A DNA stretch of 31,948 nt from a virus. The stretch covers positions 1 to 31,948 of the IMG/VR virus record IMGVR_UViG_3300050020_000059; one strand, written 5' to 3'. The notes beneath the pieces are model-generated. The model worked only from the letters and a program-made list of their open reading frames with translations, did not search any database and was not told the DNA's origin. A program made the position numbers and the translations under genes. The stretch's first letter is position 1. Each line of letters begins with the position of its first letter. Shown here one piece after another: positions 15,789 through 31,948 of the stretch.

Positions 15789-16031
15789 TCAGCAGCCTTT
15801 GACCTTCTTCATGGCGGCCATGGGCATCTTGGCAGGCATGGGCGCTGGCGCGCTGGTAAATGCGGGTTTGGCCATGGGCATCTTGGCAGGCATGGGCGCT
15901 GGCGCGCTGGTAAATGCGGGTTTGGCCATGGGCGCAGCAGCTACAGGGGCAGCCGTTGGCGCTTGGGAGATTGCATTGCCGGCGAAACGGCGCATGTTGT
16001 TGAGGTGAGAGGGGTTTTTGTGGCCTGGCAT
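15789..16031 (-). CDS. small Ala/Pro/Met-rich repeat protein
   Basis: An 80-residue protein, first gene of the late block, with a strong ribosome site (AAGGAG 6 bases before ATG at 16031). It starts MPGHKNPSHLNNMRRFAGN and then has two exact copies of MAKPAFTSAPAPMPAKMP, ending in MAAMKKVKGC. The repeats come from a perfect 54-bp tandem duplication (15817-15924). Low-complexity, lysine- and proline-rich; it could be a small DNA-associated or internal virion protein, but I do not recognise it and no function is proposed. A C-terminal Cys is notable. Confidence 0.65.
   Translation of the reverse strand: MPGHKNPSHLNNMRRFAGNAISQAPTAAPVAAAPMAKPAFTSAPAPMPAKMPMAKPAFTSAPAPMPAKMPMAAMKKVKGC
15817..15933 (-). 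repeat. 54-bp tandem repeat, two full copies plus 9 bp
   Basis: 15817-15870 and 15871-15924 are identical, followed by the first nine bases of a third copy (15925-15933). The unit is 18 codons, so copy-number change keeps the reading frame of the 80-residue protein. Confidence 0.95.
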
Positions 16032-23497: not shown

Positions 23498-23503
23498 GCA
23501 TAA

Positions 23504-23532
23504 ATAATAGCCGTCCTATTCATGCGTGTCAA
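23504..23532 (-). promoter_or_regulatory. leftward early promoter (PR-like) for the Cro operon
   Basis: On the minus strand TTGACA (23532-23527), 17-base spacer, TATTAT (23509-23504): five or six of six matches to each sigma70 box. Six bases separate the -10 box from the Cro ATG. Both boxes are overlapped by operator-like repeats. Confidence 0.85.
23506..23520. promoter_or_regulatory. operator, inverted repeat AATAG-N5-CTATT
   Basis: AATAGCCGTCCTATT, a perfect 5-bp inverted repeat covering four bases of the -10 box of the Cro promoter. The same motif is at 25531-25545 in the other early promoter. Confidence 0.75.
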
Positions 23533-23554
23533 TAGCAACCCTCTTTTTTATTTT
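23526..23554 (+). promoter_or_regulatory. rightward repressor promoter candidate (PRM-like)
   Basis: GTGTCA (23526-23531, four of six), 17-base spacer, TATTTT (23549-23554), then six bases to ATG 23561. The weak -35 box suits a promoter that depends on activation by bound repressor. The geometry again predicts a leaderless mRNA, as for lambda cI from PRM. Confidence 0.5.
23531..23545. promoter_or_regulatory. operator, imperfect copy
   Basis: AATAGCAACCCTCTT, a one-mismatch version of the AATAG-N5-CTATT operator. It is 25 bp centre to centre from 23506-23520 and overlaps the first two bases of the -35 box. It also lies in the spacer of the rightward repressor promoter. Confidence 0.6.
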
Positions 23555-25471: not shown

Positions 25472-25505
25472 TTTGCAAAATATTTTACGCTTTTTTGAAA
25501 TAAAT

Positions 25506-25520
25506 ACTAGCTTTGCTATT
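25506..25520. promoter_or_regulatory. operator, imperfect copy at rightward promoter
   Basis: ACTAGCTTTGCTATT, one mismatch from AATAG-N5-CTATT, overlapping the first two bases of the -35 box. It is the counterpart of 23531-23545. Confidence 0.6.
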
Positions 25521-25547
25521 GACACCGCAAAATAGTATTGCTATTAT
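25519..25547 (+). promoter_or_regulatory. rightward early promoter (PL-like)
   Basis: TTGACA (25519-25524), 17-base spacer, TATTAT (25542-25547). The boxes and the spacer are identical in layout to the Cro promoter, and the same operator pair overlaps them at the same places. An AT-rich stretch upstream (25477-25505) could act as an UP element. Confidence 0.88.
25531..25545. promoter_or_regulatory. operator, perfect AATAG-N5-CTATT
   Basis: AATAGTATTGCTATT, a perfect 5-bp inverted repeat that overlaps four bases of the -10 box, as 23506-23520 does on the other side. Confidence 0.75.
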
Positions 25548-25553
25548 TCGCTC

Positions 25554-25789: not shown

Positions 25790-26049
25790 GCACCGCTGGC
25801 CGTTGGACGGGCTACGTGCTGGCAATAGCGGGTTTTGCCGCAACGCTGGCCTATATCGGGCCCGCGCTCGACGATCACTCCCCCGCTGTAGCCGATGCCA
25901 TCGCCCAACAACAAGCGCAGGTGCGATTTGAAAAGGCCGCGCGCGAGATCTGTGGCCCAAACGCAGCGGTACTCGATTTGGGCTACGGCGCCATCCAATG
26001 CCGGACCCGCAAGGGCAAAAAGACAGTGACGGCGAGGGTACCCCAATGA
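25786..26049 (+). CDS. small single-span membrane protein
   Basis: An 87-residue protein whose start ATG 25786 overlaps the previous stop (ATGA). MSTAGRWTGYVLAIAGFAAT then LAYIGPALDDHSPAVADAIA: residues about 7-26 form one hydrophobic segment, then a periplasmic or cytosolic helical part with ICGPNAAVLDLGYGAIQC containing two Cys. Function unknown. ATGA overlap with the HNH gene that follows (26046-26049). Confidence 0.6.
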   Translation: MSTAGRWTGYVLAIAGFAATLAYIGPALDDHSPAVADAIAQQQAQVRFEKAAREICGPNAAVLDLGYGAIQCRTRKGKKTVTARVPQ

Positions 26050-26585
26050 AAACAACTACCTCCAATCTCACACAACAAAGATTGAAAGAACAATTGGCTT
26101 ATGACCCAGAGACAGGACTGTTTTCGTGGCGGGTCAAGCCAAAAAAGCCGTTTGTGACCGATGTTGTTGGGTGCATCGCAAATGGCTATTTGCAAATTTG
26201 CATTGACGGCTGTAGATACAGCGGGCACAGGGTTGCATGGGTTTACGTCTATGGAGCATTTCCGCCCGGCCACTTAGACCATATCAACGGGATCAGGTCG
26301 GACAACAGGATTTCAAATCTGCGCATTGCCGATTTCTCCGTGAATGCGCAAAACAGGCATAACGCCTACAAAAATTCTGTGAGTGGTGTTCTTGGCGCCA
26401 AGTGGCACAAGGGACAGCAGAAATACTTGTCTGCCATCCGGGTAAATGGGAAGTCACTGCACCTTGGCACTTTTGAGCATGTGTCTGACGCCCACGCGGC
26501 CTACATAGCGGCAAAGTCGATCTACCACCCAGGTTATTCGCCTGCCGCGCATCGCACAGCGCGCAAGACACGGAGGGCGCCATGA
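26046..26585 (+). CDS. HNH endonuclease with AP2-type DNA-binding domain
   Basis: A 179-residue homing-type endonuclease. Seen: YSGHRVAWVYVYGAFPPGHL, then DHINGIRSDNRISNLRIAD, the HNH core with conserved DHINxxxxDNRxxNLR; this follows an NUMOD4-like beta unit (SWRVKPKKPF). The C-terminal half, SGVLGAKWHKGQQKYLSAIR and VNGKSLHLGTFEHVSDAHAA, is an AP2/ERF-like DNA-binding domain as in many phage HNH genes. Coupled by ATGA at both ends, though composition is a little different from its neighbours. It likely arrived as a selfish element but keeps the operon intact. Confidence 0.85.
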   Translation: MKTTTSNLTQQRLKEQLAYDPETGLFSWRVKPKKPFVTDVVGCIANGYLQICIDGCRYSGHRVAWVYVYGAFPPGHLDHINGIRSDNRISNLRIADFSVNAQNRHNAYKNSVSGVLGAKWHKGQQKYLSAIRVNGKSLHLGTFEHVSDAHAAYIAAKSIYHPGYSPAAHRTARKTRRAP

Positions 26586-26881
26586 GCGAATGCTGCACGA
26601 CAAACGCCCCACCCGGCGGCCGCCGCCAAGGGCGCGACTGCCCGGTCAACGCGGCCCGTGCCGCCCGCACTTGCGAAGCGCTGGGGATCTGCCAGCACCC
26701 CTCGCGCGAATGCACCGGCGCGTGCGAGCAGACGCCACAAATTCCCGCAATGAAGCCGACAACTGCTGAACTCTGGCAACGCTTTTGCTTTTGGGGCAGG
26801 GTTGTCGTAGTCGGATTGGGCAGCCTGATTGTGCTGTGCGGCTTTGCCGGATACCTCTGGGTGCGCTGGCACCAAATTTAA
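26582..26881 (+). CDS. Cys-rich protein with C-terminal membrane segment
   Basis: A 99-residue protein starting at ATG 26582 (overlapping the HNH stop). The first 50 residues hold eight Cys, for example SECCTTN, DCPVN, TCEALGICQHPSRECTGACE, while the C-terminus has a hydrophobic span WGRVVVVGLGSLIVLCGFAG flanked by positive residues. An internal ATG (26751, MKPTTAELWQRFC) could make a separate short membrane protein. The Cys pattern could bind zinc or form disulfides. No family recognised. Confidence 0.55.
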   Translation: MSECCTTNAPPGGRRQGRDCPVNAARAARTCEALGICQHPSRECTGACEQTPQIPAMKPTTAELWQRFCFWGRVVVVGLGSLIVLCGFAGYLWVRWHQI

Positions 26882-30779: not shown

Positions 30780-31409
30780 ATGAACTCACCTAAAACACCT
30801 GAAATCCAAGTTCCTGAAACCCTCGGCACACCTTTCGAAGGAGGCTTCTACGGCGGCAAAATCCGCATTGGTATCGCCATCTTCGCCATCGTTTGGGCGC
30901 CCAAGGCCGAGGGAGAAATCACCGGCAAGTGGCTCAAAAACTATACCAACGTGCCTGGCGCCACAAGCTGCTTTGACAGCATAGCCAATACCAAGGCCCT
31001 GGCCGAAGCTGGCAGCCCCATTGCTCAGAAGGCCCTGGCTGCAACCATTGGCGGTCATTCCGACTGGTGCGTCCCGGCGCGCGATGTACTGGAAATGGGC
31101 TATCGCTACCTCAAGCCGACTACCCAGGAAAACTATTGCAGCTTCCGTGATGGTGACAACGCCAGCAGCATCCCTGCGGGTTATCCCTACACCGAAGCCA
31201 GCCCCGTGCAGACCACCGCTGAGGCTTTCCAGGAAGGCAATGCCGAGGCCTTTGAGACCGATAGTTACTACTGGTCCAGTACACAGTCGTCTGAGGGCAG
31301 CGCCTTCGATCAGTTCTTCAGCCGCGGCAGCCAGGACGGCAACAGCGAGCATTACGAGCGCCGGTGCCGGTTCGTCCGCTTGATTCCCTTGAATTCTTCA
31401 ATCCTTTAA
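30780..31409 (+). CDS. DGR2 variable protein A (DUF1566 domain)
   Basis: A 209-residue protein with a short N-terminal lead (GTPFEGGFYGGKIRIGIAIF) and the DUF1566/C-type-lectin-like core: TKALAEAGSP, SDWCVPARDVLEMGYRYL, ENYCSFRDGDNASS and, at the end, YYWSSTQSSEGSAFDQFF followed by YERRCRFVRLIPL. DUF1566 proteins are frequent DGR targets. The last 34 codons before CGC at 31379 form a VR that matches the next gene's VR with changes only at first and second codon positions. A purine-rich site lies before ATG 30780. Inferred role: displayed binding protein with a diversifiable surface. Confidence 0.85.
   Translation: MNSPKTPEIQVPETLGTPFEGGFYGGKIRIGIAIFAIVWAPKAEGEITGKWLKNYTNVPGATSCFDSIANTKALAEAGSPIAQKALAATIGGHSDWCVPARDVLEMGYRYLKPTTQENYCSFRDGDNASSIPAGYPYTEASPVQTTAEAFQEGNAEAFETDSYYWSSTQSSEGSAFDQFFSRGSQDGNSEHYERRCRFVRLIPLNSSIL
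31278..31379 (+). repeat. DGR2 variable repeat, copy A
   Basis: 34 codons aligned without gaps to 31748-31849. Over the last 32 codons (31284-31379) 19 bases differ, in 13 codons, all at codon positions 1 and 2, none at position 3. Flanking codons diverge at third positions, which marks the edge. The GC-rich 3' end (TACGAGCGCCGG...) is identical in both copies, as expected at the homing-initiation end. Confidence 0.9.
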
Positions 31410-31420
31410 TCGGAGTCACC

Positions 31421-31864
31421 ATGACCATCACTCTCGAAGCGATCAAAGCCGAGCAAACCAAGCTGGCTCAGATGATCGCCAACTTTGAGGCCACCGCGCC
31501 CACCCTGTTTTTCATCCCGGAGGCCAACATCGAGCTGCAACCAGGCGAACGGTATGCGGGCCTGATCCTTGGCGATGACGGCAAACCTTCGCATCACCTG
31601 GTCCTGCTGCCCGGCGACTTCGAGGCAACGTGGAACGATGCCAAGAAGTTGGCTGAGAAGGCTGGTGGTGAGTTGCCGACCCGTCGCGAACAGTCCCTGC
31701 TCTTTGCCAATCTCAAGGACGAATTCAAGGCTGAGTGGTATTGGTCTGGTGAACAGTCGTCTGAGGACGACGCCTTCCTTCAGAGCTTCGGCAACGGCGG
31801 CCAGGGCATCAGCAACAAGACTTACGAGCGCCGGTGCCGGTTCGTCCGCAGATCAGTCCTTTAA
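31421..31864 (+). CDS. DGR2 variable protein B (DUF1566 domain)
   Basis: A 147-residue protein starting MTITLEAIKAEQTKLAQMIA at ATG 31421 (CGGAG six bases upstream; a farther upstream ATG lies in the previous gene). It has an N-terminal coiled-coil/anchor, then PTLFFIPEANIELQPGERYA and GLILGDDGKPSHHLVLLPGD, a DUF1566-like core with GGELPTRREQSLLFANLKDE and EWYWSGEQSSEDDAFLQSF, and the shared ending YERRCRFVRRSVL. Paralogue of variable protein A by its C-terminal third only. Probably a second displayed binder diversified by the same template. Confidence 0.85.
   Translation: MTITLEAIKAEQTKLAQMIANFEATAPTLFFIPEANIELQPGERYAGLILGDDGKPSHHLVLLPGDFEATWNDAKKLAEKAGGELPTRREQSLLFANLKDEFKAEWYWSGEQSSEDDAFLQSFGNGGQGISNKTYERRCRFVRRSVL
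31748..31849 (+). repeat. DGR2 variable repeat, copy B
   Basis: Partner of 31278-31379. Its own variable codons include GAC, GAC, CTT, AGC, GGC, AAC, GGC, ATC and ACT; combined with copy A they imply a template rich in AAC/AAT/AAG codons. Confidence 0.9.
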
Positions 31865-31881: not shown

Positions 31882-31948
31882 ATGCTGCACACCGAGCTAC
31901 CGATCTACAAGAAGGGCTGCGAGCTGGTCTCGCTTGCCTTCGAGGTCC
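31882..31948 (+). CDS. second Avd-like accessory protein, N-terminal part (cut by window edge)
   Basis: ATG 31882 begins MLHTELPIYKKGCELVSLAFEV and runs off the right end after 22 codons. 'LPIYK...EL' followed by a hydrophobic helix is how the four-helix-bundle accessory proteins (23S rRNA intervening-sequence/Avd class) of betaproteobacterial DGRs begin. It follows directly after two VR-bearing genes. Its N-terminus differs from the Avd at 408-836. Assignment relies on 22 residues and context. Confidence 0.65.
   Translation, partial: MLHTELPIYKKGCELVSLAFEV

Follow-up and report, generated by a model that had tools for sequence, protein, structure and literature searches.

Evidence for the target end of a second diversity-generating retroelement in a temperate tailed phage

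Judged by published descriptions (PMC8144416 among them), the diversity-generating retroelement (DGR) of Bordetella phage BPP-1 (Mtd, Avd, TR and Brt) resembles the locus reported here in its mechanism and in the order target, Avd, template repeat (TR) and reverse transcriptase (RT), but it has a single target, a tail protein, whereas the targets considered here belong to an early operon. Phage DGRs with two targets have already been published (PMC10743442), and in a large DGR survey most targets could not be annotated (PMC8144416). In the Quimbyviridae gut phages (PMC8008677), a structural protein and an apparently non-structural one are diversified, as is the case here; a single RT is described there for both targets (PMC8008677), whereas phages of the present type have two separate RTs, Avds and TRs. 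The Burkholderia phage Magia (MT701587) and the Shewanella phage vB_Sb_QDWS (OK094664) have DGRs laid out like the one under study, with two lectin-like targets, an Avd, a TR and an RT in the same order. In Magia, whose annotators flagged a possible DGR target, the DGR occupies the early region between recT and the integrase, in the same place as ours, but it has an additional remote target close to the repressor. Each of these two records yields a single bAvd match, so that no second system of the type called DGR1 below was seen in them.

The window (the whole stretch of DNA that was analysed) is an entire viral contig of 31,948 bases. We are close to certain that its right end carries the target end of DGR2, a DGR of a temperate tailed phage. 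Under the proposed mechanism, RNA from a template repeat situated 3' of the Avd gene (Avd2) would be reverse transcribed by the cognate RT (RT2) with Avd2, random bases would be inserted opposite the template A's, and the cDNA would replace the corresponding 3' ends of two genes, A and B. A template made of AAY codons would confine the changes to first and second codon positions, which would explain why third positions are unchanged. In mechanism and anatomy DGR2 corresponds to known DGRs; the point of interest is that it occurs together with another one.

Variable repeats in two lectin-like genes

Target A (30780-31409, plus strand) encodes a 209-residue protein of the Lcl_C or C-type-lectin-like kind with a C-terminal variable repeat (VR), an assignment drawn from Pfam (Lcl_C, E=5.9e-5, under the curated cut-off), PHROG 4245 (E=9.7e-29), a predicted model and an orthologue of 78% nucleotide identity in the related contig L005. 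In VIA-align, the model superimposed on the C-terminal domain of Legionella Lcl (8q4e) with Z 8.6 and rmsd 3.5 over 125 residues at 18% identity; 8q4e is another protein from another organism, and the match in fold is no proof of a common function. Foldseek returned no usable match for the same model. Target B (31421-31864, plus strand, ATG at 31421) encodes a 147-residue lectin-like protein, also with a C-terminal VR; it matches Lcl_C at E=0.006, again under the curated cut-off, and shares 49% identity with gp46 of Magia, the gene product encoded ahead of Avd and RT in that phage. Its model matches C-type-lectin folds with Z up to 7.0. Both models are of moderate confidence and would place a C-type-lectin fold around the VR, as in other DGR targets. 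Used as a query against viral contigs, target B retrieved one relative only.

The two variable repeats, VR2a in target A (31278-31379, core 31284-31379) and VR2b in target B (31748-31849, core 31754-31849), both on the plus strand, were delimited by repeat search, codon comparison and the TRs of relatives; a blind repeat search recovered the pair over 111 nt at 78% identity. Compared codon by codon at an offset of 470, the cores show 19 base differences, spread over 13 of the 32 codons, with nine changes at first positions, ten at second positions and none at third positions, a recount that agrees exactly with the preliminary description. Extending the segment to 31278 adds two codons (AGT/GGT and ACA/GAA) and three changes, and the third positions are again unchanged. 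Directly 5' of the pair, third positions do differ (TAC/TAT, TCC/TCT); the segment is therefore sharply bounded, since third positions vary immediately upstream and never inside. The differences are non-synonymous and situated at the 3' end of the target gene, as is typical of a DGR.

If all 96 positions were equally likely to change, the probability of no third-position hit would be 1.6e-4. The preliminary description had argued that ordinary divergence favours third positions, and this is what is seen when target A is compared with its L005 orthologue outside the VR, where 18, 14 and 63 differences fall on codon positions 1, 2 and 3, respectively. Arithmetic on these counts gives, under the same codon-position bias, a probability of about 0.34^19, near 1e-9. 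A single near-identical contig, L006 (99% identical), agrees with the window base for base from 31284 to 31343, at which point it ends inside VR A, and no population-level variation of the VR was seen over that interval.

Cassette anatomy at the contig ends and in relatives

Downstream of target B, the contig stops 99 bases past VR2b, within the start of Avd2 (31882-31948, plus strand), of which the first 22 codons (MLHTELPIYKKGCELVSLAFEV) are present. This gene was recognised by its match to the Avd of L005, 19 of 21 residues being identical at the start, and it identifies an accessory Avd in the position, following the targets, that Avd holds in both Magia and L005. Over the whole 31,948-nt contig the 3' motif of the VR is present only twice, even when three mismatches are allowed, which leaves no copy for a TR2, and an RVT_1 search of the contig gave no match. 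In L005 the TR begins 569 bases past the end of VR B; with 99 bases left in the window, TR2 is expected beyond the end of the assembly, about 470 bases past it. We infer that TR2 and RT2 follow Avd2 in this phage.

The left end of the contig carries the edge of DGR1, all on the minus strand and, by description, of the general type of BPP-1. The first 49 codons of its RT (1-149, cut by the contig end) match PHROG 1423, reverse transcriptase (E=2e-7). Next come the template repeat TR1 (289-402), for which 18 of 20 TR1/VR1 mismatches are at A, and the gene Avd1 (408-836; bAvd, E=1.7e-16; PHROG 3206, Avd protein of DGR). The target (853-2199, with VR1 at 864-977), detected by repeat search, is a tail-region protein encoded among structural genes and matches PHROG 20912 and 2889, both of unknown function. 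The blind repeat search pairs TR1 with VR1 only, and VR2 has no match to TR1.

Complete DGR2-type cassettes were found in relatives. The invariant 3' motif of the VR, used as a DNA pattern, led to the close relative L005, which has, in this order, target A, target B, Avd, TR and RT. All mismatches between its TR and its two VRs are at template A (10 of 10 and 12 of 12, 22 of 22 together), and of the 361 mismatches in 27 TR/VR pairs from 12 loci, 333 fall on an A. A scan of 80 loci with a related RT counted 1741 of 1750 mismatches at A in 76 of them, a figure inflated through selection because the scan demanded at least 85% at A. The TRs of 11 relatives contain A at 14-19 of the 19 sites where the window's two repeats disagree (at all 19 in Hydrogenophaga L088), as against 9-16 of the 45 remaining first and second codon positions. 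The nearest of them, that of L005, has a base other than A at four of the 19 positions, so that drift of the template must be assumed there. These results support the earlier proposal that an A-rich template was the source of the repeats and that only its A's were mutated; none of the 11 TRs has non-A bases at most of the differing positions, the observation that the preliminary description had named as speaking against it. In L005, L001 and the two contigs with both systems discussed below (G001 and G007), the TR is followed by an RT with YVDD and the DGR-type IGNxxSQ motif. The same layout occurs at genomic loci of Acidovorax, Hydrogenophaga and Janthinobacterium and in the phages Magia and QDWS.

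Cassettes of the DGR2 type are common: an RT2 profile matched at least 561 loci in viral contigs. Among 80 inspected loci, two targets were present in 52, one in 19 and three in five, and none was found in four, so that two targets per template is the usual form. Third targets of one and the same TR, remote from the cassette by several kb on its upstream side, were observed at L088:4424, L090:7839, L091:283 and L002:3878.

The pattern in the VRs might also be explained without a second functional retroelement. That every change alters an amino acid, and does so within a lectin-like domain, would be expected had the domain recently been duplicated and its binding residues then come under strong positive selection; yet selection of this kind hardly comes into consideration, as it would have to keep the third positions in 32 of 32 codons while flanking ones differ, and the A-rich templates of relatives, with their mismatches at A, and the Avd gene start that follows would have no place in it. 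It is also very improbable that the DGR1 RT serves targets A and B in trans, as remote targets of one system. TR1, Avd1 and the RT start are indeed on the same contig, and remote VRs are known in relatives, such as those at L088 4424 and L090 7839; however, TR1 codes for a sequence unlike VR2 and is linked by repeat search to VR1 only, Avd2 starts directly 3' of target B, where relatives have their own TR and RT, and G001 and G007 contain both systems in full.

A DGR2 whose RT2 or TR2 was lost or broken in this phage after the VRs had been made is unlikely, if less so than either of these scenarios. Neither component is visible on the contig, and L006 shares the bases of VR A over 31284-31343, as a remnant would lead one to expect. 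Against this, targets A and B and the start of Avd2 are intact reading frames, and in 40 of 40 long relatives the RT matches lie within open frames of at least 388 residues with no internal stops. We favour the target end of a DGR2 that is probably active in the phage of the window.

Two systems in one phage and the role of the early targets

Two DGRs were found in three phages, namely that of the window, G001 (3300010965_000229) and G007 (3300050139_000115). An Avd1 query gave 80 loci, and 19 records were examined, consisting of 18 long contigs from this set and the L001 contig; among them, G001 and G007 contain both target kinds, two Avd genes each and two RTs that face each other, 8-9 kb apart. 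Like the window, they combine a DGR1-type cassette with a target in the structural region and a DGR2-type cassette with two lectin-like targets, but they are complete through both RTs, whereas the window has the outer ends of both systems only. Were the window a circularly permuted segment of a genome like these, both RTs would lie in the gap between its two facing ends.

Inside G001 and G007, RT1 and RT2 share 33-38% identity across the part that aligns, against 60-68% for the RT2s of different phages, which argues that the two systems were acquired separately. From their sequences, DGR1 and DGR2 are independent and not duplicates of each other. The treatment of DGR2 as a system of its own in the preliminary description is in line with this, as G001 and G007 carry both systems with different RTs and Avds. 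The pairing seems uncommon, since no second RT was found in any of 40 further long contigs that have an RT of the DGR2 type. Another Avd1-type phage contig, G008, has two RVT_1 matches (C1:9119-9763 and 43614-44195) and no match to the DGR2 target profile. No description of a phage with two complete DGRs turned up in the searchable papers, few of which come from subscription journals; this is weak evidence of absence.

The location of DGR2 suggests when it is expressed. From 25.5 kb to the contig end, the main reading frames are on the plus strand, and a predicted early promoter (TTGACA-17-TATTAT, 25519-25547, plus strand, 11 of 12 consensus positions) precedes a gene run that leads through recT, an exonuclease, targets A and B and Avd2; the recT product is a RecT-like protein under the curated cut-off and the exonuclease is of the RNase_T type. 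This promoter and a divergent one at 23532-23504 (minus strand), which faces a P22_Cro-like gene, are both near consensus and have a 13-mer in common (TTGCTATTGACAC). They are probably an early promoter/operator pair under a repressor, and DGR2 would be transcribed from the one at 25.5 kb. A 51-nt inverted repeat (75%; 23503-23553 and 25498-25548) contains both promoters. In the same region, 26004-26733 (about 730 bases, most of the frame 25998-26585) is absent from L006, where the flanks are joined, an insertion or deletion between close strains. Elsewhere in the window, a perfect 54-nt tandem duplication (15816-15923) lies within a short Ala/Pro/Met-rich reading frame.

Inspection by eye revealed no signal peptide in the targets. 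On balance, we lean towards targets that work inside the host cell, either at an early stage of infection or upon induction, and not in the virion. Binding of varied ligands by the two lectin-like proteins may then take place inside the host cell or at its surface and not in the virion. It is tempting to speculate, although we do so tentatively and would not yet bet on it, that this is a group of temperate phages with two unrelated DGRs, of which one acts late on a receptor-binding protein of the virion and the other, under repressor control, acts early on small cytoplasmic lectin-like proteins that bind host factors. Given how common the DGR2 cassette type is, it is the pairing of two DGRs that could matter. 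If the late and early division is true, these phages diversify two arms of infection at different times, and the ligands of the early arm are not the adsorption receptor. The DGR2 targets belong to an early operon and show no visible connection with virion genes, so that such phages would permit a direct test of what else, apart from receptor binding, is diversified by phage DGRs.
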